Assembly (NCBI RefSeq): GCF_013019105.1
Contig: NZ_BLTE01000010.1
Location: 1 to 64,000 of the forward strand
Length of the DNA: 64,000 nucleotides
DNA from: Fundidesulfovibrio magnetotacticus
GTDB lineage: Bacteria > Desulfobacterota > Desulfovibrionia > Desulfovibrionales > Desulfovibrionaceae
Direction of reading: 5' to 3'
Part shown: piece after piece, positions 9,062-33,574 of the stretch
Position numbering within the stretch: position 1 is the first letter of the stretch
How the letters are laid out: each line of letters opens with the position of its first letter
Made by a program: the position numbers and the translations under genes
Notes under the pieces: generated by a model
Databases searched by the model: none
What the model saw: only the letters and a program-made list of their open reading frames with translations
Told to the model about the DNA's origin: nothing

Positions 9062-9114
9062 GGCCGCCACTTTAGTGGCGGGCAGGGGAGGCGGGATAGG
9101 TGAAGGGGTTCAGT
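9062..9114 (-). promoter_or_regulatory. Candidate phage late promoter 1 (upstream of gp46)
   Basis: Reading the minus strand: dyad TGAA-CCCC-TTCA (9101-9112), 26 nt, then TAAAGT (9069-9074) in the loop of a perfect 7-bp hairpin CCGCCAC/GTGGCGG (9064-9081), then 7 nt and the gp46 ATG. The 20 bp at 9095-9114 recur exactly at 22503-22522 and 33555-33574. Activator-dependent (Mor/C-type) control is inferred from dyad-to-hexamer spacing. Confidence 0.55.
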
Positions 9115-9158
9115 GGAGATGAAGGTTTGAGCAATAGTATCGAACAGGAGTCGTCCGT

Positions 9159-10502
9159 ATGCGGTTGCTAATGAATGGAATCAATGGGCACTACCTTCAG
9201 TATATTATCGACAATGACCATGGAAAAACTGAAGAAGTCCTAGCAGCTGTCGCATATGCAACACAATCGTCACTCCTTTTTGACTGGTGCTGGAACAATA
9301 AAATACCGCTGACATTTTACGGAAGACTTGATGATGGCATAGCGGTTTCATCGTCAATACTTGACGGATTCATCAAGAGGCGTTCACAGAGATATATATG
9401 TCGCCTTGTTCAGCATCACCATGCAAAAGTAATATGGTGGAAAGGGTCTGGTCTGTACATCGGGTCGGCAAACCTATCTGGAAGTGCGTGGTATTCGAAT
9501 GTTGAGACCGGCTGTTTTTTTGATGAAAGCGAGATTACCGACGAGATGGCTAATGACATCGACGATTTATTTCAGCTGCTCCAGGACAAATCAACTCCAC
9601 TAACTGATGAGCTATTCAACGCAGTCAAAAAACGGGAACGCGCACTTCATTTATCCAAGCCCAATGCAGATGAATTCTGGGGATGTCCTGCCATTAAGAA
9701 GTGGTCCGGCTTAGTTCAGACTGCTCCTAAAAGTGCAAAGGCAAGGCAGCGCAGTAAATTTTTAGACGAGTGGCACTCTACACTTCAAGAATTGAGGGAT
9801 ATTGGAGATAGAATTAGCAAAGAGGGCAACCGTCCGGCCTGGGTGCATGAATCAACCCCACGAGGTGCTCAGGTTGATCAGTTTTTACACGCTCATTATT
9901 ACAACAACACGTTCGATGGCCGAAATGCAAAATACAATGATTATTACATTAAAAACAAAGACAGAAAAGAGAATGCCCTCGATGAGGCTATCCACTGGTG
10001 GAGTCGGCTGCCTAACGCACCACACGGTGAAGATGTAATGTTGAATGACACTGGTCCTGCACTAATGAGCGCACTTTCAAAAGAAAGCCTCGCGTCGATG
10101 ACAATTGAATCATTTGCAATGATATGTGGTGGCGTGCATGCCATCAAAGACTATGCACGAAGGGTCGACAATCACAAGGTTGGCCTCCCGTCAGGCGGGC
10201 AGTACACGGTTCAAGATAAAGTTGATGCACTTTCTAAAATGATCTGGAGTGACGTATCACTCGGCGGGTATAACGTTTGCCAAGTCATTGATCACGTACT
10301 GTATGGCGGATCACCAGACCATTTGCCAGAGCGAATTTGGGATGCCGTAACTGATCCTAAGTGGAAAATTCGAGGACTTGCCATTAGCTCCTTTGGAGAA
10401 CTAGTAGGCTGGGCATTGCCAGACAGGTTCCCGCCTCGGAACGGTCGTACATCCAAGGCACTAAAATCTCTCGGCTATGACGTCACTATTCATGCCGAGT
10501 AA
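9159..10502 (+). CDS. Phospholipase-D-like nuclease, cargo gene
   Basis: 447 residues. The N-terminal domain has one PLD half-site: HHHAKVIWWKGSGLYIGSAN, with H88 and K90 of the HxK motif and the GSxN serine and asparagine at 103 and 105, so a homodimer would complete the active site. The C-terminal ~300 residues are of unknown fold, tryptophan-rich. AGGAG lies 8 nt before the ATG. The gene is AT-rich and opposite to all phage late genes, typical of a moron expressed in the lysogen. A DNA-degrading defence or exclusion role is plausible but not shown. Confidence 0.75.
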   Translation: MRLLMNGINGHYLQYIIDNDHGKTEEVLAAVAYATQSSLLFDWCWNNKIPLTFYGRLDDGIAVSSSILDGFIKRRSQRYICRLVQHHHAKVIWWKGSGLYIGSANLSGSAWYSNVETGCFFDESEITDEMANDIDDLFQLLQDKSTPLTDELFNAVKKRERALHLSKPNADEFWGCPAIKKWSGLVQTAPKSAKARQRSKFLDEWHSTLQELRDIGDRISKEGNRPAWVHESTPRGAQVDQFLHAHYYNNTFDGRNAKYNDYYIKNKDRKENALDEAIHWWSRLPNAPHGEDVMLNDTGPALMSALSKESLASMTIESFAMICGGVHAIKDYARRVDNHKVGLPSGGQYTVQDKVDALSKMIWSDVSLGGYNVCQVIDHVLYGGSPDHLPERIWDAVTDPKWKIRGLAISSFGELVGWALPDRFPPRNGRTSKALKSLGYDVTIHAE

Positions 10503-10522
10503 CTTAGGGTAGCTAACAGCAG

Positions 10523-10636
10523 GCTCCTCCGTTGTCCTGCCGCCGTCGTTCTCCCGGTGCACGTGGTGCCGCAGGCTCACCTCTCTGCTCACGTGGTCCA
10601 CGTCCGCGATGGAAGTGCTTGTTAAGTGCATGTTGT
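10523..10636 (-). pseudogene. Duplicated 3' fragment of the gp45 spike gene
   Basis: This 114-bp segment aligns with 11418-11531, the end of the intact gp45 gene, at roughly 85% identity without gaps by eye. It encodes a copy of the spike tip (TSIADVDHVSREVSLRHHVH) including the HxH metal motif, but has no start and runs into the PLD gene's 3' end on the opposite strand. It lies between two cargo genes, marking a recombination joint. Confidence 0.9.
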
Positions 10637-10705
10637 CGTAACATAGGCAACTTGGCCTCATGAACGGCTAGAACAATTCCATATTGAATGCGGTGGTAGC
10701 TTTCT

Positions 10706-11368
10706 ATGTCGAGCAATATATCGAAGCACCCTTGCCCACGTTGTTGCAAACTAACAAACTGCGTTACGATTCGCTCACATAAAATCCACTGGGATGACGA
10801 AGACGCACCCATTAGCGGATGGGATGAGTATTCTATACTACAGTGCATGGGATGCGAAACTAACTTTTTCTTGCACGAAGAATGGTTTTCAGAATGGCAA
10901 GACTCTGACCCAGATGATCCTCCAGTAACAACAAAAATATACTTCCCAAAAATTGAGAAAAAGAAAGCAGGCTCATTGTCCTTTGATATTTTCGTTACTG
11001 ATGAATATGCAGTAAAATCTTTGCATGATGAAATTTATAAGGCAATCAACAATGACATGCCACAGCTTGCAGCGGCTGGAATTAGGACGTTGATTGACAG
11101 ATTTGCTGTTTCGATTACTGGGAAGAACCAAAATTTTGAGAAAAATATTGGATATCTCTGCGACAAAGGACACATTTCTATTGACCAGCTTGGCATGTTG
11201 ACGACGATTCTTGATGTTGGACATAGTGTTGTACACCGCTCTAATGTCCCAAGAATGGAAGATGTCGAGACATGCTTAAGGATCATCGAACTATTAATGG
11301 TATTGGTAAATGACGGACCTGAGGTTGCAGCTAGAATCAAATCAAGAATTCCAGAGAGAACAAAATAG
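10706..11368 (+). CDS. DUF4145-type protein with zinc ribbon, cargo gene
   Basis: 220 residues. The N-terminus has CPRC (C10, C13) and CMGC pairs, a zinc-ribbon layout; the C-terminal half (about residues 105-200: AAAGIRTLIDRFAVSITGKN ... GHSVVHR) matches DUF4145, a domain often found fused or next to restriction and other defence nucleases. AT-rich and on the plus strand like its neighbour. It lies between two copies of the gp45 3' end. No catalytic motif is seen; it may need a partner or act as a sensor. Confidence 0.7.
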   Translation: MSSNISKHPCPRCCKLTNCVTIRSHKIHWDDEDAPISGWDEYSILQCMGCETNFFLHEEWFSEWQDSDPDDPPVTTKIYFPKIEKKKAGSLSFDIFVTDEYAVKSLHDEIYKAINNDMPQLAAAGIRTLIDRFAVSITGKNQNFEKNIGYLCDKGHISIDQLGMLTTILDVGHSVVHRSNVPRMEDVETCLRIIELLMVLVNDGPEVAARIKSRIPERTK

Positions 11369-11389
11369 TATTTGTAGAGTTTAAAGTCA

Positions 11390-12046
11390 TCAACCTGCCT
11401 TTTCTCCCCCTCCCTCCGGCTCCTCCGTCGGCCCGCCGCCGTCATTCTCCCGGTGGACGTGGTGCCTTAAGCTCACCTCCCCGCTCACGTGGTCCACGTC
11501 CGCGATGGACGTGCCCGTGAAGTGGACGTTGCCCCTCCACAAGGCCTCGCTGCCGCCGTTCTCTTCCCCGCCCATCTCCCATTCCGGCGCGTACAACCCC
11601 ATGCGCTCGCTGGCGGTGGCTTCGATCTCGCGGGCCTCCATGCGGATGGACTTCTTCGCCGTGATCTTCAGCTCGTCGCAGTCGATTTCGATGATCCTGT
11701 CTTCCTTCAGGACGATCCGCGCGCCGCTCTGGTTGTACACGGCCACCTCGCCGCTTTTCAGCCCGTCTACGCGGTAGGCCCCGGCCTCGGTGGCCACGAT
11801 GACCGAATGCGCCGTCCTGCCGCCCAGGGGTAGCACGATGCACTGCGTGCCCTCGGGCGGGGCAGAGGTGAAGCCGAAGTGCTGGAACAGCTCGCTGGCC
11901 TGGAGCTTCTCGCCGCTCAGGCCGTCCGCCTGCATGAGCTGCACGCCGGGCTTGGTGTCCAGGGCCGTGAGCGCCGCCCGGAAGGCCAGGCGGATTCGCC
12001 CCAGGGCGCGGCCGATGCGGGCGTCCAGGCGGTCCACGTCCTTCAT
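11390..12046 (-). CDS. Mu gp45-like baseplate spike
   Basis: 218 residues; ATG overlaps the P-gene stop as ATGA. The N-terminal OB-fold region is followed by the triple beta-helix segment (VAVYNQSGARIVLKEDRIIEIDCDELKITAKKSI..) and a tip with TSIADVDHVSGEVSLRHHVH; the HxH motif coordinates iron at the spike apex in the P2/Mu family. It pierces the outer membrane on infection. Its last 114 bp are duplicated at 10523-10636. Confidence 0.92.
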   Translation of the reverse strand: MKDVDRLDARIGRALGRIRLAFRAALTALDTKPGVQLMQADGLSGEKLQASELFQHFGFTSAPPEGTQCIVLPLGGRTAHSVIVATEAGAYRVDGLKSGEVAVYNQSGARIVLKEDRIIEIDCDELKITAKKSIRMEAREIEATASERMGLYAPEWEMGGEENGGSEALWRGNVHFTGTSIADVDHVSGEVSLRHHVHRENDGGGPTEEPEGGGEKAG

Positions 12047-13134
12047 GGCAGTTCCACCACCTCCAGGGCCTTCTTGCCCTTCTTCTTGGACTTGAAGCCC
12101 GAGGCCAGCTCCGGCAGCCAGACGCCGTCTTCCTTGAGCACCAGCTCGGTGATCTTCCCACTGTCCCGGCCACCGGTGAAGGTCCGCTTCATGAGGAAGT
12201 ACACGCCGTCCAGGCCGTGGGGCTCGCTCACCACCTGCACGCGTTGGCCCGGCCGCCAGGGCTCGCCGCTCGCGCCGCCCACGCGGTGGCCGCGCACCCG
12301 GGCCGTGATCTCGAAGCCCTCCAGGCGAGAATCCGCCAGCTGCTTCCTGGCCCGTCGCGCGGCCTCCTCCTGGTTGTCGCACTCGCCCTCGGGGATGATG
12401 AGCGGCCGGTAGCCGGGCACGTCCGGGTCCGTCTCCCGGTGCATGATGTCGTGGCGGCCCTCCTTGTCCTCGGTGCCGTGGGTCTGGCCCAGCACCGTGA
12501 CCTCGGAATACCGGCCGGACACGTCTTCGCGCACGGCGAGGCTGAGGGTGTTGTTGCCCTTGCCGTCCAAGCGCACCACCAGCGTGGCCACGGGCGCGGC
12601 CGTGTAGTCCGGCCCGCCCACCACCAGCGTGCCGTCCGGCTCGCACCAGGCCCAGCAGCCGTTGGCCTCGCAGGCCTTGGCCAGCAGGTCCCAGGCGCGC
12701 TCGCCCGGCTCCACGGCGACCTTCTCCTTGCGGCCTTCGGTCTCCACGCGGATTTTCTCCACGCCCAGGGGGCGGGCCACAAGGTCCACCACTTCCTGCA
12801 ACGTGGCCTCGCGCTGGGTGAACACGGGCGCGGAGCAATCCACCAGCACGGCGGCGTTGTCGCGGCCCGAGATGGTCAGGCTCTGGGTGTCCTTGGCCAG
12901 CTCGCGCTCCACGCGGTCGATGCGCCCGGTGAGCAGCACGTCGCCGCCCAGGAGCACCTCCACGGGAGCCCAGGGCCGCACGCCAGGCGGGATGTCCCCG
13001 ACGGGGATGCCCAGGGTCACGCGCCAGGCGTCGGCCGGGGTGAGGAGGTCGGAATCTATCGTGTAGGAGGTCCAGTCCCGATGCTCGCCGCCGCCCACCC
13101 GCAGGGTGAGGCGGTCCTCACCGGGCGTAGCCAC
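12043..13134 (-). CDS. Mu P (gp44)-like baseplate hub
   Basis: 363 residues from GTG 13134 (VATPGEDRLTLRVGGG), preceded by AGGTG and overlapping the N gene by 17 bp. It shows the beta-rich hub architecture of the phage D/gp44 family: GWDxVxVxxxidxls N-terminal barrel, a LysM-like insert (EVVDLVARPLGVEKIRVE), and RVRGHRVGGASGEPWRPGQR near the end. It forms the trimeric hub that carries the gp45 spike. Confidence 0.87.
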   Translation of the reverse strand: MATPGEDRLTLRVGGGEHRDWTSYTIDSDLLTPADAWRVTLGIPVGDIPPGVRPWAPVEVLLGGDVLLTGRIDRVERELAKDTQSLTISGRDNAAVLVDCSAPVFTQREATLQEVVDLVARPLGVEKIRVETEGRKEKVAVEPGERAWDLLAKACEANGCWAWCEPDGTLVVGGPDYTAAPVATLVVRLDGKGNNTLSLAVREDVSGRYSEVTVLGQTHGTEDKEGRHDIMHRETDPDVPGYRPLIIPEGECDNQEEAARRARKQLADSRLEGFEITARVRGHRVGGASGEPWRPGQRVQVVSEPHGLDGVYFLMKRTFTGGRDSGKITELVLKEDGVWLPELASGFKSKKKGKKALEVVELP

Positions 13135-14470
13135 TGAGCACCTGCCGAGGGGCGATGAAGTTCGGGTTGCGCACGCCGGGGTTGAGGCGCGCCAGTTCCT
13201 CGGAGCGGGTGCGGTCGCCGTAGAGCCAGTGGGCCAGGAGGTGCAGGTTGCACAGGGCCGGGGCCGCCACGGCCACCACGGGCGGGTGCAGCTGGATAAC
13301 CTGGGCTCCCAGGTCCTGCACGGCCAGGGCGGCGGAGCGCATGGCCTCCACCATGGGGTAGGCGGTCTGGGCGGGGAAGATGGCCCGGGCCTCGTCAATG
13401 GTGTCCTGGAAGCGCTGGCGGGAGACGCCCACCACGGCCTCCACCTCGGCCGGGGTGAGGGACGGCGCGGCCGTCTCCGCCACCAGCACGCCCGAGGCGG
13501 CCTGGGCCACGGCCATGGCTGAGGCCAGGTTGAGCGTGGCGGCGGCCATGGCCCTGCCCTGCCCGGCCGGGGTGGAGAGGTCCGGGGCGGGCGCGGGGTT
13601 GGTCTGTTCCGCCGGAGGCGTGACCACCACAGGCCGGGGCGCGGCCTCGCTGGTGAGCGGGCCGCTCACGGGCGTTCCGGCGTAGAGCGCCGGGACCATG
13701 GGATAGGCGCGGCGCGCGCCGGACTCGCTCACGGAGAAGTTGGGTAGCAGGCCGGACAGGCTGGCCAGGGGCGCGAAGCGGCCGAACACGTCGGTGGTGG
13801 CCAGGGTGGACACGTTGGAAACGAGCGATTGCGCCGTGCCCAGCAGGCCAAGCCCCTGCCCGAAGACGCCCGGCACGGCGGGAACGGCCACGCCAGCCAG
13901 GGAGGCGGCCTCGGAGAACACGCCCCGGGCCGCGCCCAGCAGGTCGCCCCGGGCCACCTGGGAGAGGACGTTGTTCAGCTTCCCGGCCCAGCCCTGCACG
14001 GCGGAGAGGTTCAGGCTCTTGAGCTTGTCGAGCCAGCCCTGGAGCTTCGAGGCGTTGGCCAGGGCCTTGGCCTTGGCGGAAGCGCCCCCGGCGAAGAAGG
14101 GGGCGTCGGGCTCGGCCTCCACCAGGTCCAGGCTCACCTGGGCGAAGTCCGGGTTGTCCTCGTGGTGCTCCACGGCGTAGGAGAGGAGGCTCGCGTTCAT
14201 GGAGCCGAACACCGGGTGGACCAGCTCCCCGGGGCCGGGCTTGTCCAGGGCGTCCAGGAGCTTGCGGAGTCCCGCCTCGTAGTCCTTGCCCCAGAACACG
14301 GCCTGGAGGCGCACGCTCCGGGCGCGCCTGCCCAGGTCCTCCACTTCCGCGCCGTCGCGGTAGGGGTATTCGTGGCGCACCTGGGCGCGCTCGGCCGTGT
14401 CGGAGGTGCTGCACACCGCGAGCTTGACGCCCTTGAAGCTGGCGTCCTGCAACGTATCCTTCCAGGCCAT
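13118..14470 (-). CDS. Mu N (gp43)-like tail/DNA circularisation protein
   Basis: 450 residues; the ATG at 14470 overlaps the tape-measure stop (TGATG). The N-terminal ~90 residues (WKDTLQDASFKGVKLAV...AERAQVRHEYPYRDGAEVEDLG) match the DNA-circulation N-terminal family of Mu gpN. The C-terminal half is alanine/proline-rich and helical. In Mu this protein is needed for tail assembly at the baseplate. Confidence 0.88.
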   Translation of the reverse strand: MAWKDTLQDASFKGVKLAVCSTSDTAERAQVRHEYPYRDGAEVEDLGRRARSVRLQAVFWGKDYEAGLRKLLDALDKPGPGELVHPVFGSMNASLLSYAVEHHEDNPDFAQVSLDLVEAEPDAPFFAGGASAKAKALANASKLQGWLDKLKSLNLSAVQGWAGKLNNVLSQVARGDLLGAARGVFSEAASLAGVAVPAVPGVFGQGLGLLGTAQSLVSNVSTLATTDVFGRFAPLASLSGLLPNFSVSESGARRAYPMVPALYAGTPVSGPLTSEAAPRPVVVTPPAEQTNPAPAPDLSTPAGQGRAMAAATLNLASAMAVAQAASGVLVAETAAPSLTPAEVEAVVGVSRQRFQDTIDEARAIFPAQTAYPMVEAMRSAALAVQDLGAQVIQLHPPVVAVAAPALCNLHLLAHWLYGDRTRSEELARLNPGVRNPNFIAPRQVLSGYAR

Positions 14471-17018: not shown

Positions 17019-17022
17019 GCGG

Positions 17023-17397: not shown

Positions 17398-17409
17398 GCG
17401 TTGTCTCCT

Positions 17410-20006: not shown

Positions 20007-20012
20007 GGGACG

Positions 20013-20390: not shown

Positions 20391-20400
20391 GGTGGCCCTC

Positions 20401-21306: not shown

Positions 21307-22470
21307 CTACTTGGTCTCCTTGCCTTTGGCGTAGTCTTCCTCGGACATGCCAAGGAGCTTGGCGGCTTCCTTCTCCTCCGCCGTGAGGGCGGCCGTGCCG
21401 GAGCCCGGCGCGCCCGGGGCGGGAGCGCCCCCCTGAGCCTGGGTCTGCATGCCGGAAAGCGCGGCGATGGGCGCGGCCTTGTCAAGGTAGGCCTTGGCCT
21501 GCTCGGGGCTCGTCTTGGCCAGGTGGCGCAGCCAGCCCTCCAGGCCCACGTTCACGCGGCCGTCCTTGAGGGCGGCGTCGATCTGGCCGGAGAGTGCGGC
21601 CGTGCCGTTGGCCTGTTCCAGCTCGGCCACGCGGGCCTTGAGGGCGGCGTTTTCCTCAGTCAGGGCCGTGAGGCCCTCCACCGGGGCGAACTTGGCCGGG
21701 TCGGGCTGGCCCGCCTGGGCGGTCAGGGCCGCGATCTGCGCGTCCTTGGCCTGGAGCACGGCCACCAGGTTCACGGACGCGGCGGCCTCGCCGCCCAGCT
21801 GCGCCTTCACTTTGTCCAGCTCGGCGATGATCTCCGCCGCCGTGGCCGTGACCGGCAGGTTGAGCATCCAGCGGAGGCGCTCCGCCAGGTCCTCGCTGAG
21901 GGCCGTCTGGCCCGCCTGTAAGTTCATCAGGTCATCCTCCTTATGGGTTTGCATCGCGGCGGCCACGGCGGCCATGCCGTCCAGGGCCGGGTTGTTGGTG
22001 AGCGCGGCGTTGATGAGGGTGCGGACGGCTCCGGTCTTGAGGTCGAAAGTGAAGAGGGGGGAGAGGAAGCGGTATTCGTCCGCCTGGATGTGCTGGCGTG
22101 CCGCGTTAGTCCATGCTACTTTGGCGAAGAGCCCTTTGGCAGGGACGTAGACCAGGGATTCGATCCACCCGGCGGCCACGGCCTTGTGGCCGCCGTCCTT
22201 GGCGGTGAGGGTGTGGTGCTCGTAGTCGATGAAGAGCGGCGTCTCGCGCGCCTCCACCTGGGCGATGAGCGCGGCCGCGATGTCCGCGTCCATGCGCCAG
22301 GTTTCGGCCTCGCTGCCCTCCATGACGCCAGGGCGGCCATCTCGGGCGGAGAACTCGCCGTCCGGGAAGAGCTGGACGTTGCAGCCTTCGGGCAGGTCCG
22401 AGGAGTCGGGGGTGAGCTGCACGGCCAGGGCGGCCGTAGCGTGCGTGGGGGAGTGTTTCGCGGTGCGCAT
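21307..22470 (-). CDS. Head protease / scaffold (Mu I-like)
   Basis: 387 residues. The N-terminal ~200 residues are the Mu gpI protease (RFIDYEHH-type FIDYEHHTLTAKDGGHKAVA, then NPALDGMAAVAA); the C-terminal part from an internal MNLQAGQTALSED is the coiled scaffold (Z in Mu is made by an internal start). Its ATG is 7 nt from a -10-like TAAAGC in a hairpin, with no leader Shine-Dalgarno, matching the gp46 arrangement. The SIR2 cargo lies immediately upstream on the other strand. Confidence 0.92.
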   Translation of the reverse strand: MRTAKHSPTHATAALAVQLTPDSSDLPEGCNVQLFPDGEFSARDGRPGVMEGSEAETWRMDADIAAALIAQVEARETPLFIDYEHHTLTAKDGGHKAVAAGWIESLVYVPAKGLFAKVAWTNAARQHIQADEYRFLSPLFTFDLKTGAVRTLINAALTNNPALDGMAAVAAAMQTHKEDDLMNLQAGQTALSEDLAERLRWMLNLPVTATAAEIIAELDKVKAQLGGEAAASVNLVAVLQAKDAQIAALTAQAGQPDPAKFAPVEGLTALTEENAALKARVAELEQANGTAALSGQIDAALKDGRVNVGLEGWLRHLAKTSPEQAKAYLDKAAPIAALSGMQTQAQGGAPAPGAPGSGTAALTAEEKEAAKLLGMSEEDYAKGKETK

Positions 22471-22522
22471 GTCCGCCGCTTTAGCGGCGGCGGACTATGT
22501 GCGATAGGTGAAGGGGTTCAGT
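22471..22522 (-). promoter_or_regulatory. Candidate phage late promoter 2 (upstream of protease I)
   Basis: Minus strand: dyad TGAA-CCCC-TTCA (22509-22520), 25 nt, TAAAGC (22478-22483) in the loop of a perfect 7-bp hairpin CCGCCGC/GCGGCGG (22473-22490), 7 nt, then the ATG. The 20-bp block 22503-22522 equals those at 9095 and 33555. Mu has late promoter PI in the same place. Confidence 0.55.
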
Positions 22523-22569
22523 TCGTTATTGGACGTGAAGCTTTCGTGTTATTAAATGGAGATGCTATC

Positions 22570-25500
22570 ATGAAGAAATTCATACTTACAAGCATAGAAA
22601 AAATCCGTAACTCACTAGGTTCTGGAAAGGCCATTGTTTTTGTTGGTTCAGGAGTCTCTTTAAATTCTGGAATGCCAAGTTGGTCTGAGTTGGTCCAAAA
22701 ATTCGCCAACGAACTCGATGTCGATTCTAATAATCTATCGAGCGATGACTATATTAAAATTCCACAATATTACTACAACGAACGAGGCAGCAAAGAATAC
22801 TTTGACCTATTAAGGCAATCAGTTGATTGCAGGCTTAAGCCGAACCCAATACATAATGTTATTGTCAAGTTAAATCCTTGGCACATAATTACAACCAACT
22901 TCGACAGTCTGATTGAATCTAGTGTGGACGAAAGCGACACAAAGTATCACCTAGTGAAGGAAAACAAAGACATTGCCTATGGCGACAGCAACAGAATGAT
23001 AATTAAGATGCATGGAGACATTGACACATGCAATACTGTGCTCAAAGAGGATGACTATCTTTCTTATTCATCAAACTTTCGTTTGATTGAGAACACGGTA
23101 AAAACATTGCTGTCAAGTTATACAACAATATTCGTAGGGTTTTCAACGGATGACCCAAATTTTAAAATATTATACCAGTGGGTTAAGAATGAATTAGGCC
23201 TGCACATGAACGAGGCATATCTCATAGATACATCGCGCACATACAGCAAGCTGTTATTTGACTACTATAAGTCAAGAGGCATAAAGACGCTGTACATTAA
23301 AGACCTTGAAAAAATGGACCAGGATTATTGTCTGTTTTTGTCAAGAATTGCACTGGAAGAAGAGTATAAACAGATCGGCGCGGACAGCGGAAAGAGACTT
23401 TATGCAGTATTGCAATATATACTAAACAAGCCAGCTGTATCTTTCTCAGACCATGTTGCTAAACTGTACAATGCTCTCGAACCCTATGCAAAACTTAATG
23501 CACTGCTCCCGTCCATGATAGTTGAAGCGATAGGTGGTAAGGCTGTGCATAATTACAGGGCACATGGCGACCTGACCATTCTAAACAACAATGAATATTA
23601 TAAGTTTTACGTTGAATTGTTCGATGATGGTAAACGGTGGAGAAATGTATTTAAAGAAAATCGCGTCAAATTGACAACAATACTAAAGACACTGAAAAAG
23701 GCAGGCATTAACACGCTTTGCCTAAGTGATGGTAGCCATAAATTTCGCTTCAATAACTTGAAGGATGATTCGTTGGGTTTTCCAAGTGAAATGTTTGATA
23801 GCATTATTACCTTTGACAATGAAAAGTTAGAACTGTTGCTCAATAAGCTCTTGTCAGGAATGCCTATTGAAGATAGAACTGCTCATGTCTTGTCTGCTGC
23901 TTATTGCCACTACAAACTTGGGAATTATATTGAATCCTATGCAGAGTTGAAAAGGGTTTCCGCAGAGTCACACAAGGCGAAGGACTACATATTAATGGCA
24001 ATTGCTGAGTTCAACATTAAACTGCTGTCATTCTACATAAAGGTCAATCACCCTAAGTCAGACTTTCCAGAGATATGGAGCTATGCAGACAAAATTGATC
24101 TTGATGGAATCTTGTCGAGGCTGGCCCCTTCTCAACGTCATGTCGGGATGGCTTTAAAGAAAGTTTTCGACTTCGATTATGTGAATGAATACTTGGTCCG
24201 TTCTAATTCTAAGTATGAGGCTGTGTTGAACCAAAAGAGTATGATCGAGTCTGGGGGGGCGTCCTTCAATTCTGCACTCGCAGAGCAGCACACCAATGCC
24301 ACAACTTTTTATTTATTTGTAGTCACAAACTTTATTATGATGGACGCATATACTCAATATCGAGGCGTTCTTGTTGATTATGTAAGAACAATATTTGCTA
24401 GTCACAGCATAACTCCAGCCGAGAAGAATCCATTTATCAGTCCTGATGATCACTTTAAGGCGTCTGAAATTGATTATTTTTGCATATTCATAGCTGCTAA
24501 CTGCATGACATTTGACGATGTTTCTGCTATGTTTTCGAACAACAGCATGGATAGAATTGTGCTCTCGAAAGACGCCTGTGACAATATGATTTTAGCAATT
24601 GAAAATTCTAGCAAGCACAAGTTTTCATTTTTCAATCAGCCGAACACCACACACATTCTGATGCTACTCTTGGCACGATCCAACGCTGATCATGTTTTAG
24701 TTCAAAATGCTTTAAATATATATCTTCAGTATATAGTCACTGCCAAGCGTAATTATGAATACGCGAGCATTATACTTGCAAGTCTAAACAAAAATAGTCC
24801 AAGTATACTATCTGGTTTTGACTTTGAACATTTTGTGCAACTGTTGCTCAACATGTGTATTGCTGGGCACTTTGACGTTTTGTTTGATGAATTTTCTAGA
24901 CTACTAAGAAATATATTTTATATCTCAGCAGAATATGGAAAGATTTACGAAAAAAGTGCCATTACAATTGACTCATTCTTGTGTCGTGTTGACGCATTGA
25001 TTTCCTCAGATGATATACATGGATACCGTTTGTTCCAATATATTTGCATCGACATGTGCGCGGTTCTGCCAATTTCTGAGCGCTCTCATATTGAGAGTGT
25101 CATTAGCAATATTGCAATCGACAAGTATGATGGCGTTTATGAATCGATACGTATTGATATTTTGTTAGAAGCATTACGCTCCTCCGTGGCCTGCTCTGAA
25201 GATATTTCAAAGCGTGTTGTGGAATATTTGACTAAAAATATTAACAAGATCGATCAATACGATGCAGACTATAGCGAAATTATATCAAACGCCTCTGCTC
25301 TTCATGTTGCGAAGCTTATTGTTCTGCCGGACTCGATTGTCGACAAAATTTCAACACGAACTGATTTCTCAGGATTTGTGATTAATCCAGCGGGCTTTAA
25401 TTATGCTAAATTTAAAATAGAATGGTTAAGGTATATTCCTGAATCAGTCCTTGGGAAATATCTAAAGAACTCGAATGTTATTACACTGGTCAAGAATGAT

Positions 25501-25578
25501 TTGATGCGCATGATGCCTGCACGATTTAAGTTTTTTTACAGGCGCTTGCTTGATGTCTATTTTCAGGATGGCGACTGA
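22570..25578 (+). CDS. SIR2-domain defence protein (DSR-like NADase), cargo gene
   Basis: 1002 residues. The N-terminal ~280 form a SIR2-like Rossmann domain: VFVGSGVSLNSGMPSW (24-39), TTNFDSL with the conserved Asn at 110, and MHGD with the catalytic His at 148. The long C-terminal ~700 residues are helical without a recognised family. Length and architecture match defence-associated sirtuins (DSR1/DSR2), which deplete NAD+ when a phage protein is sensed. GGAG lies 8 nt before the ATG. It is AT-rich, opposite to the phage late genes, and ends 82 nt before the G gene. NADase activity and trigger are inferred. Confidence 0.85.
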   Translation: MKKFILTSIEKIRNSLGSGKAIVFVGSGVSLNSGMPSWSELVQKFANELDVDSNNLSSDDYIKIPQYYYNERGSKEYFDLLRQSVDCRLKPNPIHNVIVKLNPWHIITTNFDSLIESSVDESDTKYHLVKENKDIAYGDSNRMIIKMHGDIDTCNTVLKEDDYLSYSSNFRLIENTVKTLLSSYTTIFVGFSTDDPNFKILYQWVKNELGLHMNEAYLIDTSRTYSKLLFDYYKSRGIKTLYIKDLEKMDQDYCLFLSRIALEEEYKQIGADSGKRLYAVLQYILNKPAVSFSDHVAKLYNALEPYAKLNALLPSMIVEAIGGKAVHNYRAHGDLTILNNNEYYKFYVELFDDGKRWRNVFKENRVKLTTILKTLKKAGINTLCLSDGSHKFRFNNLKDDSLGFPSEMFDSIITFDNEKLELLLNKLLSGMPIEDRTAHVLSAAYCHYKLGNYIESYAELKRVSAESHKAKDYILMAIAEFNIKLLSFYIKVNHPKSDFPEIWSYADKIDLDGILSRLAPSQRHVGMALKKVFDFDYVNEYLVRSNSKYEAVLNQKSMIESGGASFNSALAEQHTNATTFYLFVVTNFIMMDAYTQYRGVLVDYVRTIFASHSITPAEKNPFISPDDHFKASEIDYFCIFIAANCMTFDDVSAMFSNNSMDRIVLSKDACDNMILAIENSSKHKFSFFNQPNTTHILMLLLARSNADHVLVQNALNIYLQYIVTAKRNYEYASIILASLNKNSPSILSGFDFEHFVQLLLNMCIAGHFDVLFDEFSRLLRNIFYISAEYGKIYEKSAITIDSFLCRVDALISSDDIHGYRLFQYICIDMCAVLPISERSHIESVISNIAIDKYDGVYESIRIDILLEALRSSVACSEDISKRVVEYLTKNINKIDQYDADYSEIISNASALHVAKLIVLPDSIVDKISTRTDFSGFVINPAGFNYAKFKIEWLRYIPESVLGKYLKNSNVITLVKNDLMRMMPARFKFFYRRLLDVYFQDGD

Positions 25579-25660
25579 CAATCCGTCTATTGTGTGGACA
25601 TTATGATGCGTTTATTGCGTTAGCGCCCCGTTAGAATCCATCGCAGGGGCTGTCGGCACA

Positions 25661-26140
25661 TCAGCGCCCGCCAAGGAACCGCTGGAGGGCGCTGGAGGTC
25701 GTCTGTGCGATTTCGGCCTCGTCCTCCGGCCCGACGCCGAAGAACCGTCTGGCCGGGATGTCGCCCCATGGAATCGGCCCCCCGCGTCTGGTCCTTCCGA
25801 ACTGGCCCTTCTTGGCCCCGAACTGATGCGTGGGGGCATAGGGCACGTTCGTGGTCACGCGGGCGAAGTCCGGACCGTGTTCGGCCTGGATGCTGCCCGC
25901 CAGGATGCCGCTCACTTGGAGGATCGGCGTGGAGCTGCCCCGGCGGTTCACCGTCACCGGCTTGAGCGGTGCCCAGGGCGCTCCCGTCACCGGGTCGCGC
26001 TGGCCCGCGAAGGCCCGCTCCGGGATGTCCGCCAGCACGCCCGCCAGGGGCCGGGTGACGGGCGTCATGTTCGCGCCCAGGGCGACGATGCGCATGAGCA
26101 GGGCGTCCACGGGGGAGGTGTTTACAAAGATTTCGATCAT
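25661..26140 (-). CDS. Virion morphogenesis protein (Mu G-like)
   Basis: 159 residues, starting MIEIFVNTSPVDALLMRI. The phage virion morphogenesis family pattern FAGQRDPVTGAPWAPLKPVT, STPILQVSGILAGSI, YAPTHQFGAKKG and PARRFFGVG is complete. The family links head and tail assembly. It follows F after a 131-bp spacer; the SIR2 cargo is inserted after it. Confidence 0.92.
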   Translation of the reverse strand: MIEIFVNTSPVDALLMRIVALGANMTPVTRPLAGVLADIPERAFAGQRDPVTGAPWAPLKPVTVNRRGSSTPILQVSGILAGSIQAEHGPDFARVTTNVPYAPTHQFGAKKGQFGRTRRGGPIPWGDIPARRFFGVGPEDEAEIAQTTSSALQRFLGGR

Positions 26141-26271
26141 GGCTATTTCCTAACTGTCCCTGGTGGATGTGACACGGTAACATTCTCTCGGCCGTAGCAC
26201 GGGCGGAAGCCCGGAGCGCCATGCGAGGTTTCCGCGCAAGCGGGTGAGGGGCCTCGCCATCCGCCAGGCAA
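26141..26271 (-). other. Spacer between F and G genes
   Basis: 131 bp with no gene on either strand. It contains the short inverted repeat GCGGAAGCCCGG / CGCAAGCGGG-like sequences but no T-run. It may hold a promoter for G; none is clear. Confidence 0.3.
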
Positions 26272-29156: not shown

Positions 29157-30771
29157 CCCAAATCCTCCGGATCAGCCCGCGCCCGCCGCTCTTGGGCACG
29201 GGGGTGAAAGCCATGGTGGTGAAGCCGCCCACGGCGACTTGCCAGAGCATTTCCAGGGCGTCGGGGCCATCGTCGTGGTCCGCTTTGGGGAAGTGCCGTA
29301 GTTGCTCGATCAGCGTGCGCTGGGTGGGGTGCAGGCGGATGCGCCCCTGCGCGAAATAGGGCTGCATGGCTTCGATGCGCAGGGTCTTGTCCGCGTGGGG
29401 CGTCACGGCCCGGGCCGGGATGGGCAGGCCCCGGGCGGCGGCGCGCGCGATCAGCTCCGTGCGCAGGAACTCCTGGAACTGGACGGACTCCACGGCCCAG
29501 AGCAGGCAGCGGAACTGCGCGTGCCAGGAAATCACGTCCTCAATGATGCGGTCCGGCAGGCGCTTGCGGATGTCCGCCACCACCACGTCCAGCACGGCGC
29601 GCTCCCGGGAATAGCCGCCCACGAGGATGGCTGAGGGGTCACGGCCCTGGCCGGACTTGCCCAGGGAGGGGTCCACCGCGCCGAAGAACTGCCAGTCGTT
29701 GGCGCGCTCCACCCAAAAGGTGATGCAGCCCGCGAAGGGCGCGCCTTCCCCGGCCACGGGGTCGTTTTGCTGCTCGGAGTCGAAAGCCGCATGGCCGTCG
29801 CGGGCGCGCTTGAGCATGAGTTTGTAGAGCGGCCGGGCGGACGGCCAGGAGACCACGGCCCCTTCCTCCATGGCGCTGGCGCGCTCCAGGTGGAAGGCGC
29901 GGGCGGCGTCCTCGCCATCCTGGAGGAGGATCTCCTCCCACTTGTCCCACAGGTCCAGGCGGTGGGGCCATTCGATGACGGCCCTAAACTTGCGCGAGCG
30001 CCAAAGCTTGTTGCCCAGCAGGCGAGAGAGCACGGAATCGTAGTGCAGCACCGTGCCGACAAGGATCACGTCCATGGCGTCGTCCGCGCCCGAGAGGTTG
30101 AGCACCGTGCGGGCCAGCCAGCTTTCCAGCTTGTCGCGCTGGTCAGGGCTGCGCACGTTCTCGTCGTTCTCCAGGTCATCGCAGATGACCAGGTCGGGCC
30201 GGTGCGGGCCGTGGCGCAGGCCGCGCATGCGCTTGCCGGAGCCGAACGCCTGGAGCTTCACCTCGCCCGCCGTGATGGCCACGCCAGCGTTCCAGAGCCG
30301 CCCCTGGCCGCAGGCCTCGGGGAAGTCCATGGCGAGGCGGGGGTTGGCCTCCAGCTCGGCCTTGAGGGGCTCCAGGAGCGTGGCGGCGGCCTGCTCGAAG
30401 GCGTCGGCGATGAGCGGGATGAATCGCTTACGCCCGGTGACGACGCACCAGAGCACGAAGATGAGGCTCACCACCGTGGACTTGGCCTCGCCGCGCGGGG
30501 CGGCCACGGCCAGGCGCTGGCCGTCCGGGTGGTCCACCAGGGCCGGAAGGGTTTCGTCCAGCCAGGTGTGCAGCACGGAGTCGCCGTGCCGGACGTAGTG
30601 CGGGAAGTAGGTGCGCCGGAAGAAGGCGAAGTCGCGCCAGGCGCGCTCCCGCCTGGCGGCGGAGGCGGCCGGATCGGGCGAGAAGCCCTCGCACTCTGCT
30701 TCGATGGTCCGGCGCAGCCCCTCGGAGAGGCGCGCCAGCTCAAGGAGGAAGTCCTTGCGCTTGAGCTTCAT
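29137..30771 (-). CDS. Terminase large subunit (Mu gp28)
   Basis: 544 residues. ATPase Walker A AAPRGEAKST at 90-99 and Walker B LVICDD at 194-199; the C-terminal nuclease region has GAVDPSLGKSG, a later acidic pair and a final HDDGPDALEML. It cuts and packages phage DNA by headful, including flanking host DNA as in Mu. It is preceded by the gp27-like small subunit. Confidence 0.93.
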   Translation of the reverse strand: MKLKRKDFLLELARLSEGLRRTIEAECEGFSPDPAASAARRERAWRDFAFFRRTYFPHYVRHGDSVLHTWLDETLPALVDHPDGQRLAVAAPRGEAKSTVVSLIFVLWCVVTGRKRFIPLIADAFEQAAATLLEPLKAELEANPRLAMDFPEACGQGRLWNAGVAITAGEVKLQAFGSGKRMRGLRHGPHRPDLVICDDLENDENVRSPDQRDKLESWLARTVLNLSGADDAMDVILVGTVLHYDSVLSRLLGNKLWRSRKFRAVIEWPHRLDLWDKWEEILLQDGEDAARAFHLERASAMEEGAVVSWPSARPLYKLMLKRARDGHAAFDSEQQNDPVAGEGAPFAGCITFWVERANDWQFFGAVDPSLGKSGQGRDPSAILVGGYSRERAVLDVVVADIRKRLPDRIIEDVISWHAQFRCLLWAVESVQFQEFLRTELIARAAARGLPIPARAVTPHADKTLRIEAMQPYFAQGRIRLHPTQRTLIEQLRHFPKADHDDGPDALEMLWQVAVGGFTTMAFTPVPKSGGRGLIRRIWDALDDD

Positions 30772-30774
30772 GGC

Positions 30775-31275
30775 TTACCCATACGCCCGCGCGATCTCCG
30801 CGCCGAAGGGCTCCAGCACTTCCACGAAGGCCGGGCCGTGCTGGGGGAAGCGGGCGCGGATGAAGTCCGAGAGTTTGTTGAGCACCGCCAGGGCCGTGGC
30901 CAGCTCGCTCGTCTCCGGCAGCACGCGCTTGCTGGCCGCCACGGTCTTGTTGAAGCTGTCCGCCAGGCTGGCAAGCATGGACACCTTGTCCTTGGCTTCG
31001 ATGGTCTGGTCGGTGCTGATGGCGTCCATGATGGCCTTGTGCGCGACCACGTAGTCCGCCAGCATCTGGCGGGCCACGCTCTCCACGCCGTCACCGGCCA
31101 GCAGGCAGGCGGCGCGGAGCTTGTCCCAATCGTCGCCCAGCTCCTTGCAGCGGCGCTTCCAGCGCGCGGCCGTGGAGAGCGGCACACTGGCCTTCAAGGC
31201 GGCGATCTCCAGGGGCAGACGCTCGTGAATGAAGGCGGCGCGCACCGCCTCGCGCTTCTCGCGGGCGTGGGCCAC
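30775..31275 (-). CDS. Mu gp27-like protein (DUF1804), probable small terminase subunit
   Basis: 166 residues. The N-terminus is a helix-turn-helix (REAVRAAFIHERLPLEIAALKASV..STAARWKRRCKELGDDW), followed by a helical region with MLADYVVAHKAIMD, as in the DUF1804 family. It lies directly before the terminase large subunit and probably binds the packaging site. Confidence 0.85.
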   Translation of the reverse strand: MAHAREKREAVRAAFIHERLPLEIAALKASVPLSTAARWKRRCKELGDDWDKLRAACLLAGDGVESVARQMLADYVVAHKAIMDAISTDQTIEAKDKVSMLASLADSFNKTVAASKRVLPETSELATALAVLNKLSDFIRARFPQHGPAFVEVLEPFGAEIARAYG

Positions 31276-31278
31276 GGG

Positions 31279-31488
31279 TTACCACCCCAAGAACTTGGCC
31301 TTGATGTAGAGCACCGCCGTGGTGACAACGCCCCCCACCAGCCCGCCGGAGATGCCACCGGCCACGGCCCCGGCCGTCATGGCCCGGCGCTCCATGCCGT
31401 CCAGGCGCACGTCCAGGGTGTCCAGCTTGTCTTCAATGCGCGCGAGCGCCTGCATTTCCGGCGTGTCCGGTTTGTGTACGTCCTTCAC
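31279..31488 (-). CDS. Small membrane protein before terminase genes
   Basis: 69 residues from GTG 31488, overlapping the previous stop as GTGA. A short coiled segment (ALARIEDKLDTLDVRLDGME) is followed by one glycine-rich transmembrane helix (AGAVAGGISGGLVGGVVTTA). Its predecessor has the reversed order, transmembrane helix then coiled coil, so the two may pair. Function unknown; possibly in lysis. Confidence 0.65.
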   Translation of the reverse strand: MKDVHKPDTPEMQALARIEDKLDTLDVRLDGMERRAMTAGAVAGGISGGLVGGVVTTAVLYIKAKFLGW

Positions 31489-31760
31489 GGCTTCCCCCGT
31501 TCGACCAGCCGGTCGAGCTTGTCTTCGATGCTTTTCAGGCGGTCGAGCACGGCGTCGGTCTGCCGATGGCAGTCCTCGCGGCGCAGGAAGGTGTCCGCCG
31601 CCTTCTGGGCCTGTTCGGCCTGTGCCTTTTCCAGCGCGGCGCAACGGTCCTGGAGCGCGCGCACGGTGTCCACCTGGTGCTTGAGGATGAAGGCCCCGAG
31701 AGTCCCGGCCAGGGACAGCACGGCGGAGAGGATCAGGGCCGCCAGGGCGGCGGTGTCCAT
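31485..31760 (-). CDS. Membrane-anchored coiled-coil protein (DUF2730-like)
   Basis: 91 residues: one N-terminal transmembrane helix (ALAALILSAVLSLAGTLGAF) then a coiled coil (VRALQDRCAALEKAQAEQAQ...VLDRLKSIEDKLDRLVERG). Mu-like phages carry DUF2730 proteins of this design in the same place, between lysis and gp27 genes. Role unknown. Confidence 0.65.
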   Translation of the reverse strand: MDTAALAALILSAVLSLAGTLGAFILKHQVDTVRALQDRCAALEKAQAEQAQKAADTFLRREDCHRQTDAVLDRLKSIEDKLDRLVERGKP

Positions 31761-32333
31761 CTACCGGCCCCCCGCCGCGAACGCGGAGAGCGCCCGGGCC
31801 TGCGCCTGTACGGACCGGGACCAGGCCCCGTAGTCGCGGGCGTGGGCCAGGAGGTCCTCGGGAGATACAGGCGGCGTCACGGCTCTTCCCGGAAGTACCC
31901 CGGGGCCAGGGGCGGGGGCGGCTCCGGGATCGTGGCCAGCTCCGGCGGAAGCGGGGCCTTCGGGCAGAGCACCGCCGCCGTAACCGAGGGCTTCGTTGTA
32001 CAGGCGCACGAAATCAGGGCCAAACAGGCAGCCAGGAGCAGAGCGCGCGGCATCCTTGATCCTCCGGGTGATGACTTTGGTCTGGACGACGATCCGTCCC
32101 TTCTCCTCCTGGAGCCGCACGGCCAGGGCGTTGGCCCGGCCGGTCTCCTCCTCCAGACGCTCGCGGGCCTTTTTCTCGGCTTCGGCGTAGGCGGAGGCGT
32201 ATTCGGCCTTGAGCGCGGCCACCTCGGCCAGGCGCTCGGCGTCGGCCCGGGAATACCCGGCCCAATACCCGCCGCCGAACACGGTCAGCACCAGGAGCAG
32301 GGCCATGAGGGGATTGGCGATGAGGGCGGTCAT
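31761..32333 (-). CDS. Inner-membrane spanin (Rz-like)
   Basis: 190 residues from the ATG at 32333, which overlaps the transglycosylase stop (ATGA). One N-terminal transmembrane helix (NPLMALLLVLTVFGGGYWAG) is followed by a long periplasmic coiled coil (AERLAEVAALKAEYASAYAE...LQEEKGRIVVQTKVITRRIK). That is the i-spanin plan. Its C-terminal half overlaps the o-spanin Rz1 in another frame. It fuses inner and outer membranes in the last lysis step. Confidence 0.82.
   Translation of the reverse strand: MTALIANPLMALLLVLTVFGGGYWAGYSRADAERLAEVAALKAEYASAYAEAEKKARERLEEETGRANALAVRLQEEKGRIVVQTKVITRRIKDAARSAPGCLFGPDFVRLYNEALGYGGGALPEGPASAGAGHDPGAAPAPGPGVLPGRAVTPPVSPEDLLAHARDYGAWSRSVQAQARALSAFAAGGR
31877..32053 (-). 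CDS. Outer-membrane spanin lipoprotein (Rz1-like), embedded in Rz
   Basis: 58 residues in the +1 frame relative to Rz, with its own Shine-Dalgarno GGAGGATCAAGG before ATG. The signal peptide MPRALLLAACLALISCACTT has a lipobox ending LISC, and the mature part is short and proline-rich (PLPPELATIPEPPPPLAPG), exactly as Rz1 proteins. Stop at 31877. The pair with Rz is convincing. Confidence 0.88.
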   Translation of the reverse strand: MPRALLLAACLALISCACTTKPSVTAAVLCPKAPLPPELATIPEPPPPLAPGYFREEP

Positions 32334-33028
32334 GACGCGCCCCCGCAGACGCCGCGCCCCCACCCGGCCCGCTCGTAGAGAGGCTCCAGGGTGAGCAGGA
32401 TGCGGCGGGGATAGCCCCGGTTCTCCTTGAAGGCGGCGGGCGAGCGCCCGGCGTTAAACCGCTCCAGGGACTCGAACCAGGCTAACGGGTCCGCGCCGTT
32501 CGCCCGGGCCACGGCCTTGTCCCGGGCAATCCAGCCCAGGCCGCCGTTGTAGGCGGAGAGGGTCATGGCCATGCGCTCGCAGGGCGCGCGGGCCTCCACC
32601 CGATCCCAGAGCCAGCGGTCGTAGGCGGCCAGCGCCCGGAGCGCCCAGCCGGGGTTGAAGGGCTGGGCCTGCGCCAGCTCCGGGTCCACGTTGCCCATCC
32701 ACCGGGCTGTGGCAGGCATGAACTGCGTGAGCCCGGCCGCGCCCACGGGCGAGACGGCGTCCGCCCGCCAGCGGCTCTCCTGGTGCACCTGGGCGGCCAT
32801 GGTGGCCACCGGAGCCTCCAGGCCCCAATGCACGCGGGCGCACCGGGTGAGGTCCGCCCGGTAGCGCACGGCCTGGGCGGGGATGGTTTCGGCGCGGGCG
32901 AAGGAGGCCAGGAACCAGAGCATCACCAGGACGCCCAGGATGAATCCCGCCCCGGCCATGAAGGACTGCCAGAAGATGTCCCCTGCCCGCTGGAGGTTGC
33001 CCCCCACGGTTCGCAGCCAGGCGCGCAC
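32330..33028 (-). CDS. Lytic transglycosylase endolysin (SLT domain)
   Basis: 232 residues from GTG 33028, 2 nt after the holin stop. An N-terminal transmembrane or signal-anchor helix (SFMAGAGFILGVLVMLWFLA) precedes an SLT domain with catalytic Glu in HQESRWRADAVSPVGAAGLT, then QFMPATARWMG and AYNGGLG. It cleaves peptidoglycan; the anchor suggests a SAR-type or membrane-tethered endolysin. Confidence 0.88.
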   Translation of the reverse strand: MRAWLRTVGGNLQRAGDIFWQSFMAGAGFILGVLVMLWFLASFARAETIPAQAVRYRADLTRCARVHWGLEAPVATMAAQVHQESRWRADAVSPVGAAGLTQFMPATARWMGNVDPELAQAQPFNPGWALRALAAYDRWLWDRVEARAPCERMAMTLSAYNGGLGWIARDKAVARANGADPLAWFESLERFNAGRSPAAFKENRGYPRRILLTLEPLYERAGWGRGVCGGAS

Positions 33029-33030
33029 GG

Positions 33031-33474
33031 CTAGAGCCCCAGCCCCACGGCCAGCATGCAGAAGCCGACGATGAGCGCCCGGCGGACCAGGGCGGCGGCG
33101 AAGACCTGCTCGTAGCCCGGCGCGACGGCGTGGTCCGGCTTCAGGGGCTTGAAGCCCTGCTCCAGCTGCCAGTTGCGCAGCAGGTAGCCGTCCGGCCGCG
33201 CGTAGGGGAAGAGCCACACGTCGAGCCAGTAGCCGAGGTAGCCCGCCAGGAGCACCAGGGCCAGCTTGTAGAGCGCCACGGGCAGCTGCACCGGCGAGAC
33301 GACGGCCACCACGCCCAGGCAGACGACGGCAGCCACGCCGCAGAGCAGCATGCGGAAGGGGCTGGCGCTGTAGCGGTCGCCCCAGGTGTTGATGGCGCTC
33401 CGGTAGCGCCAGACGAGCATGGCCAGGATGGCCGCGACGATCAGGACCAGCAGGAAGGTGATGGGATCGAACAT
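33031..33474 (-). CDS. Putative phage holin
   Basis: 147 residues with about four hydrophobic helices: PITFLLVLIVAAILAMLVW, MLLCGVAAVVCLGVVAVVS, LYKLALVLLAGYLGYWLDVW and a C-terminal ALIVGFCMLAVGLGL. The motif WGDRYSASPFRMLL is shared by a putative holin family in Mu-like phages. TTTGGAGG precedes ATG. First gene of the lysis operon, directly behind candidate late promoter 3. Confidence 0.78.
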   Translation of the reverse strand: MFDPITFLLVLIVAAILAMLVWRYRSAINTWGDRYSASPFRMLLCGVAAVVCLGVVAVVSPVQLPVALYKLALVLLAGYLGYWLDVWLFPYARPDGYLLRNWQLEQGFKPLKPDHAVAPGYEQVFAAALVRRALIVGFCMLAVGLGL

Positions 33475-33511
33475 GCCGCCTCCAAATTGGTGGGTTTGGG
33501 GCGGAAAAGGG

Positions 33512-33574
33512 CCGCCCCCCGTCGCCGCCTGAATAGGCGGCTCCGGGGGGCGGTGATAGGTGAAGGGGTTCAGT
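33512..33574 (-). promoter_or_regulatory. Candidate phage late promoter 3 (upstream of lysis operon)
   Basis: Minus strand: dyad TGAA-CCCC-TTCA (33561-33572), 25 nt, TATTCA (33530-33535) in the loop of a large hairpin (33512-33553: outer 10 bp, inner 7 bp). The 20-bp block 33555-33574 is identical to the other two sites. Mu has Plys here. The hairpin is followed by CCCTTTTCC and could also terminate transcripts from the cargo genes. Confidence 0.55.

Follow-up and report, generated by a model that had tools for sequence, protein, structure and literature searches.

What is a short sequence doing at the edge of each block of foreign genes in a temperate phage? The question is raised by a Mu-like prophage of Fundidesulfovibrio magnetotacticus (contig NZ_BLTE01000010.1, positions 1 to 64,000 of the forward strand; this whole 64,000-nt stretch is referred to below as the window), in which the 20-mer GATAGGTGAAGGGGTTCAGT occurs in three exact copies (Table 1). 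Each copy has a GC hairpin with an AT loop on its low-coordinate side and AT-rich genes on its high-coordinate (upstream) side, where GC content falls from ~0.7 to 0.37–0.54. An earlier note on this DNA described the arrangement and read the copies as Mor/C-type late promoters that double as safe docking points for cargo. Its description holds at all three copies, including the dyad-to-hexamer spacings, the hexamer letters and the downstream genes; its interpretation was largely right on promoters and in need of correction on docking. The analysis presented here indicates that the copies are probably Mor-activated late promoters standing at cargo seams and equipped with a lock resembling that of T4 gene e, by which read-through RNA would be made untranslatable or terminated.

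The repeated element at three late operon starts

On the minus (phage) strand each copy reads ACTGAACCCCTTCACCTATC (the core of the 20-mer is YTGAACCCCTTC), followed after 19–20 nt by a -10-like hexamer in the loop region of the GC hairpin and then by a late gene, the hexamers being TAAAGT (gp46), TAAAGC (head protease) and TATTCA (holin), at 26, 25 and 25 nt from the dyad. Beyond these copies, no match with up to three mismatches occurs in the window, nor in 100 dinucleotide shuffles of it; throughout the host genome (4,463,309 bases, 58 contigs) the three window copies are the only matches at ≤2 mismatches, and two additional matches appear elsewhere at 3 mismatches.

The element recurs at the same three junctions between conserved phage genes (seams) in related phages. 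Among 288 genomes of the family, three-site clusters at ≤3 mismatches were found in the window genome and in G004, G005, G259, G261, G266 and G268, and two sites on fragments in G264, while virus contigs contributed G288, G289, G291 and G292; single hits at 3 mismatches were set aside. The 12 related phages provide 32 seam instances (11 gp45–gp46, 10 gpG–protease and 11 Mor–holin), in each of which 419–3533 bp separate the stop of the upstream gene from the element. A search of relatives for the element and its upstream content, as the earlier note had proposed, returned the same seams with differing upstream sequence. The edge is sharp: conservation starts at the element's second base, the commonest base averaging 0.97 at element positions 2–20 vs. 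0.39 over the 30 positions upstream, where the sequences are unrelated between phages. Pairwise identity (90 instances) is 0.25–0.31 directly upstream, i.e., at the chance level, vs. 0.95–0.99 in the 12-nt core. As a separate observation, the protease and holin elements of one contig (L058, G261) are only 3 kb apart, so that the terminase–portal region has seemingly been lost there.

A larger set was gathered by the core itself, yielding 100 distinct instances, 91 of which were kept (33 gp46, 29 protease, 29 holin). The assignment rests on a protein match in 85 of them and on the hairpin in six (five holin, one protease), where the hairpin is therefore true by construction. These six came from 15 instances without a downstream protein match; the other nine were dropped (five sharing another repeat, four single oddities). 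A different element, CTGAACCCCTTCAACCTRTC followed by taatgccgcaaaacctgaaatactgaacacc, with no gp46, protease or holin behind it, was observed in L191, L199, L220, L223 and L244. Core conservation in the 91-instance set is likewise given by construction, because the instances were collected by the core, and searches by protein, in which the element was ignored, are independent of that. Such searches located 46 Mor, 14 gp46 and 11 protease loci, and the element (≤2 mismatches) stands ahead of gp46 at 11 of the 14 loci and ahead of the protease at 10 of the 11, the remaining protease locus being truncated at its start; two of the remaining three gp46 loci have a one-base-longer form, CTGAACCCCTTCCACCTGTC, and the third has diverged. 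The pattern CTGAACCCCTTC-N(1-2)-CCTRTC matched 14 of the 288 family genomes, several of them with three sites (reversed control, 0), as well as 70 stretches of viral contigs. All three sites are retained even in G306, though its Mor is 36% identical. A dyad scan downstream of distant Mor genes gave only chance-looking hits.

The geometry points to a specific class of promoter. Upstream of gp46 and the protease, the distance from the core start to the hexamer is 38–39 nt in all 62 instances, at positions that are partly script-selected (the hairpin script accepted only TA 6–7 nt before ATG, allowed two hexamer positions at the holin and permitted G.U pairs), and the ATG follows 6–7 nt past the hexamer, 50–52 nt from the core, in all 62. 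The second base of the hexamer is A in 91 of 91 instances (again partly selected). If the A of the ATG is taken as +1, as predicted, the dyad is centred at -43.5 to -45.5; Mor of Mu is described as binding a site centred at -43.5, where it replaces the -35 (PMC4390567). The Mu promoters Pm (Mor) and Plys, PI, PP and Pmom (C) are alike in having a Mor-family activator, a dyad ~44 bp before the start (a predicted one in the present phages) and a -10 without a -35, and the late operons of Mu also start at lysis and protease genes (PMC4390567, PMC4461284). In contrast to Mu, the phages considered here have another site sequence that is common to all seams, a single Mor gene seen instead of Mor plus C, a -10 enclosed in a hairpin and an ATG at the predicted start. 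Taken together, the positions before the holin, the protease and the tail operon, the dyad–hexamer geometry, the conservation at the seams and the presence of a Mor-family gene adjoining cargo island C, whose product is the presumed ligand of the elements, render it well supported that the elements are Mor-type late promoters, with activator binding and transcription starts as predictions.

Table 1. Features of the window discussed in the text (positions are those of the window).
Feature	Position	Strand	Details
Element A, activator-site-like	9095..9114	-	minus strand reads ACTGAACCCCTTCACCTATC
Element B, activator-site-like 20-mer copy	22503..22522	-	
Element C, activator-site-like 20-mer copy	33555..33574	-	
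Hairpin A	9064..9081	-	CCGCCAC-TAAA-GTGGCGG; -10-like TAAAGT at 9069-9074
Hairpin B	22471..22495	-	palindrome GTCCGCCGC...TAAA...GCGGCGGAC; -10-like TAAAGC at 22478-22483
Hairpin C	33512..33553	-	long GC stem, inner GCCGCCT-ATTC-AGGCGGC; TATTCA at 33530-33535, then CCCTTTT
gp46 (baseplate) gene	8705..9061	-	PF07409; ATG 9061-9059, 7 nt past hexamer; no Shine-Dalgarno
Head maturation protease (I) gene	21307..22470	-	phrog_328; ATG 7 nt past hexamer; no Shine-Dalgarno
Holin gene	33031..33474	-	PF13272; GGAGG ahead of ATG
Mor-family activator gene	34654..35070	-	PF08765 (E 2.2e-16), phrog_836 (E 2.1e-28)
Cargo A	9115..11389	+	PLD-domain gene 9159-10502; DUF4145 gene 10706-11368
gp45-tail copy between the two cargo A genes	10521-10634		
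Cargo B	22523..25660	+	SIR2-domain gene 22570-25578; ThsA/Dsr2-like PADLOC matches
Cargo C	33575..34653	-	open reading frames 34059-34628 and 33668-34123

A hairpin around the probable promoter and its possible roles

The hairpin, which the earlier note had simply recorded, turns out to belong to the unit and to be conserved in structure. RNA folding of hairpins A, B and C gives z-scores of -2.77, -4.52 and -5.17, the inner part of hairpin C sitting within a CCGCCCCCCG/CGGGGGGCGG stem. With G.U pairs allowed, all 62 gp46/protease instances have a stem that adjoins or takes in the ATG, and a perfect stem of at least 7 bp is found at the ATG in 59 of 62, as compared with 16 of 1002 starts of open reading frames (ORFs) in these phages. 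Among these 16, 11 are gp46/protease-type sites, four are background, and one led to a fourth unit (G299, contig L168), in which CTGAACACCTTC stands 39 nt before a TATAGT in a hairpin, behind a 160-amino-acid ORF with ~0.46 GC, itself located after the tail sheath gene. Since this control scanned for nothing except a hairpin at an ATG and yet led to the element, it provides independent support that hairpin and element belong together.

A large majority of instances have the -10-like bases within the loop. Across seven distinct 4-nt-loop protease hairpins, two of the first seven pairs vary between two pair types and all seven stay paired, while several pairs in thirteen holin hairpins occur as two or three pair types; the protease hairpin of distant phages reads CATGCCCCCG-TATAC-CGGGGGCATG, with the start codon itself paired. 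As judged from such comparisons, conservation concerns the structure of the hairpin and not its sequence, and the hairpin encloses the -10-like bases. Its use as an operator of a sequence-specific protein is disfavoured because the three stems of a single phage, G297, differ (CCGCCAC, CCCCCG, CTGCCA) while the core agrees.

A Shine-Dalgarno-like sequence precedes the gp46 or protease ATG in 0 of 62 instances, as compared with 35 of 46 other genes of the Pseudomonas phage JBD69. Together with the ATG 6–7 nt past the hexamer, this absence leads to the prediction of leaderless mRNA at both genes. At the holin, where a looser test was applied, a Shine-Dalgarno motif follows the hairpin in 29 of 29 instances, and in 26 of them a start codon comes no more than 10 nt later.

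These features suggest the following mechanism, in which Mor-type activation is the best supported step and the lock is a step that we infer. Each copy would act as a self-contained late-operon promoter of the Mu-like phage: the Mor-family activator would bind CTGAACCCCTTC..., centred ~44 bp before the start, in place of a -35 box, and recruit host RNA polymerase to the weak -10 ([TC]AnnnN) enclosed in the GC hairpin. RNA from the unit's own promoter would begin in the loop or the 3' arm, so that the hairpin could not form; at gp46 and the protease it would start at or within ~1 nt of the A of the ATG, giving a leaderless mRNA, and at the holin in a leader containing a Shine-Dalgarno sequence. 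Read-through RNA, coming from cargo or a preceding operon, would instead carry both arms. At gp46 and the protease the hairpin would then abut or include an ATG that has no Shine-Dalgarno, and translation would presumably fail, while at the holin the hairpin would present a terminator-like barrier. With nothing needed upstream of the element and a downstream gene that ignores read-through, foreign genes could therefore sit there, and defence and anti-defence genes would come and go at the seams.

A known parallel for such a lock comes from phage T4. Long early RNAs of gene e are reported to fold over its start, and late RNAs lacking the 5' strand escape this; the likeness extends to soc and I-TevI, where upstream-started RNA also folds over the start and the late RNA begins inside the structure (PMC3014915, PMC2988022). 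In the units described here a conserved stem likewise covers or abuts the start (the 59 of 62 stems and the changes on both sides reported above), and the promoter would be positioned within the structure, with the hexamer in the loop region and the predicted start in or after the 3' arm. T4 differs in using its own late promoters and in freeing a Shine-Dalgarno sequence, whereas the present units combine a promoter of Mor type with an ATG that, at two seams, is predicted to be leaderless.

Several observations weigh against this interpretation. The Mor site of Mu is 16 bp long, with 5-bp arms and a 6-bp spacer, whereas the dyad here is TGAA-CCCC-TTCA (shrinking to GAA-CCCC-TTC in distant phages), and no such core is present in the C–lys and G–I gaps of Mu; on account of this architecture the unit is filed as a variant and not as the Mu Pm type. 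The last base of the hexamer is T in only 72 of 91 instances. While core and hairpin stand within ~5 kb downstream in 28 of the 46 Mor loci, 18 have no unit, 12 of these with >4 kb of sequence downstream and six with <1.6 kb; one of the twelve, G306, has the core without a hairpin there. The unit is widespread, not universal. Hairpin C of the window fails a terminator scan. Finally, folding is more stable for the antisense than for the sense strand at gp46 (23 of 30) and at the protease (23 of 26), which does not favour a role in RNA at these genes, although loops and flanks confound the comparison; at the holin the sense strand folds better in 22 of 25. The counts of interior G.U vs. A.C mismatches (3:2, 3:0, 4:3) are uninformative. 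An RNA-level role of the hairpin is thus not supported by this test at two of the three seams.

The main rival, which we regard as rather unlikely, keeps the Mor-type promoters and has the palindrome act as DNA, extruding or melting under supercoiling to open a GC-rich promoter that has no -35, with no part in read-through. The -10-like bases in the loop would suit it well, as would the folding preference just described, and the preserved pairing of the stems is equally needed by a cruciform; however, it leaves unexplained that the gp46 and protease start codons adjoin the stem or lie within it, that no Shine-Dalgarno is found there, and that a T-rich stretch follows hairpin C. This stretch (within ten bases, 20 of the 29 holin instances have at least 5 T and all 29 at least 4) is in turn what recommends a second alternative, namely that the hairpins serve mainly to terminate transcription of, or to delimit, the preceding operon or cargo and that the element is a part of that boundary instead of a promoter. 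Such a view is quite improbable given that the gp46 and protease hairpins reach the ATG directly with no T-tract, that the element-to-ATG distance stays at 50–52 nt in 62 of 62 instances, and that elements persist in seams free of cargo.

Elements without cargo and the docking question

In the 86 of 91 seams where the upstream gene was found, its distance from the element ranges over 5–3670 bp. Seven of the 86 are near-empty (≤120 bp), with 5, 7 and 44 bp at gp45–gp46 and 69, 69, 117 and 120 bp at gpG–protease. The match to the upstream gene ends ≤6 nt from the stop in six of these seven; in the near-empty seam of G306 it ends 84 nt short of a plausible gp45 tail. Because the element persists with only 5–120 bp upstream, it is the phage's and not the cargo's, and its reading as a piece of cargo was rejected. 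Cargo-free relatives lacking the element, which would have spoken against the earlier note, were looked for and are not what is seen. That the element marks every cargo island is correct insofar as it borders all three; since relatives retain it with almost nothing upstream, it is better said to mark three late operon starts.

The same evidence bears on the idea that the element is a docking site at which a recombinase or a site-specific process inserts cargo. Cargo does start no more than one base from the element, both in the three islands of the window and in relatives, and to that extent the safe docking points of the earlier note survive, as places that cargo abuts and where it turns over; signs of insertion at the element itself were not seen. 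Each seam holds one copy, with none seen at the other cargo edge in 32 seams, and the element is retained in near-empty seams; neither arrangement expected of an att-like site (the element at both cargo ends, or its absence where there is no cargo) was found. Island A contains a copy of the gp45 3' end that is 86% identical to 11418-11531, the two copies flanking the DUF4145 gene, and no remnant of the element stands at this stacked joint (best 8 mismatches); it looks like stacking by between-phage recombination and not like insertion at the element. In JBD69-type phages, moreover, aca1 and a following stretch lie between the variable anti-CRISPR (acr) genes and the element. Insertion by docking is, in our estimate, highly improbable. 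A chance repeat or a recent duplication within the prophage, for which nothing was found in favour, is refuted by the shuffles and by conservation in 12 phages and beyond, and its probability is negligible.

Cargo, Pseudomonas anti-CRISPR phages and wider meaning

Defence-like genes are common in the cargo, a large share of which is without identification. In the window, the DUF4145 gene of island A matches PD-T7-4 (E 1.2e-6), while neither ORF of cargo C has a match in Pfam or PADLOC. Comparison of 51 cargo ORFs of at least 60 amino acids yielded five between-phage matching pairs at E 1e-4, all of them at seam C and none at seams A and B. Of 30 proteins from relatives scanned with Pfam, 14 have no match at E 0.01; PADLOC, applied to ten of the 30, matched six at 0.001, two of these matches being strong or broad (PD-Lambda-2_C and a type IIG restriction enzyme). 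Other cargo of relatives includes a helix-turn-helix (HTH) plus ImmA-like pair, a GDSL hydrolase, an SDH-type protease, a NACHT/STAND NTPase, a KAP NTPase (PDC-S49), a weak NYN match, an ORC-like ATPase, a ThsB-type TIR protein with SLATT and a second TIR protein. Two further observations concern the Mor–holin seam. In G289 (L093:530-889) it holds a 119-amino-acid remnant of a 1148-amino-acid type IIG restriction gene resembling that of G005 (L052:5145-8591), with the first and last parts fused; in L061, L088 and L087 (G266, G288, G291) it holds a 148-amino-acid family, 78–87% identical, with a signal-peptide-like start.

The unit extends to Pseudomonas phages carrying anti-CRISPR genes. The late activator of JBD69 is 32.5% identical to the Mor of the window (by the related MP38 and JBD69 rows), and GAACCCCTTC occurs in JBD69 exactly twice, once between the acrF1 locus and the protease (as TTGAACCCCTTC) and once in the gap separating the late activator from the next gene. 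Both units have hairpins, with the ATG at 51 and 50 nt, and -10-like bases in JBD69-type phages are weaker still (CACCAT or CAGGAT). The core before the protease is unchanged in ten further relatives of JBD69, and seven of the eleven records, JBD69 being counted, have annotated anti-CRISPR genes at the seam. The gene after the anti-CRISPR genes, which we take to be aca1, is constant in JBD69-type phages, as is the stretch behind it; since both stay put, variability ends short of the element there. The anti-CRISPR locus of D3112, DMS3 and JBD phages and the plasticity regions of Pseudomonas Mu-like phages are thus similar to the seams of the window in having exchangeable low-GC genes between gpG and the protease, followed by the same core, and differ in the shared aca1 and the stretch behind it and in that two units, not three, were found in JBD69. 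In DMS3, MP29 and JBD16C (L249, L252, L254) the annotated start of the protease is an internal one, located downstream of the predicted ATG, probably because this predicted leaderless ATG has no Shine-Dalgarno.

A separate motif was observed in the same gap. A sequence like TTTTAACGGGGGGTTAACG stands behind the stop of gpG in each of the 10 gpG–protease seams (25600–25660 in the window), JBD69 has an inverted look-alike between an HTH gene and the element, and Mu has an annotated gyrase cut site in its G–I gap; the motif is possibly a central gyrase site.

Foreign accessory genes between conserved phage genes are also familiar from morons and from the defence hotspots of P2/P4-type prophages; the present case differs in that a common phage regulatory unit forms one edge of every seam. 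The variable regions of Pseudomonas Mu-like phages have been described as lacking a common flanking sequence, and the mechanism of their acquisition as mysterious (Cazares 2014; PMC4378225). Neither the element nor the lock in Mu-like phages is named among the literature matches listed (titles and abstract starts of open-licence papers), which is weak evidence of absence. Mor-type late promoters as such are known; those that stand at cargo seams would in addition have a built-in, T4-e-like lock.

Tentatively, the hairpin-locked, leaderless, Mor-dependent unit may be common as a start of late operons in a wide group of Mu-like phages, from those of sulfate reducers to the Pseudomonas anti-CRISPR phages, and its indifference to read-through could be the reason why defence and anti-CRISPR cargo gathers and is exchanged at precisely these seams. 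The unit also offers a search handle, with which seams can be located from sequence and their cargo catalogued, and for many phages it predicts where late promoters and start codons lie, as well as leaderless late mRNAs. A concrete reason is offered for the location of defence and anti-CRISPR genes in Mu-like temperate phages, and the unit may explain how such phages can carry cargo without disturbing their own lytic genes.

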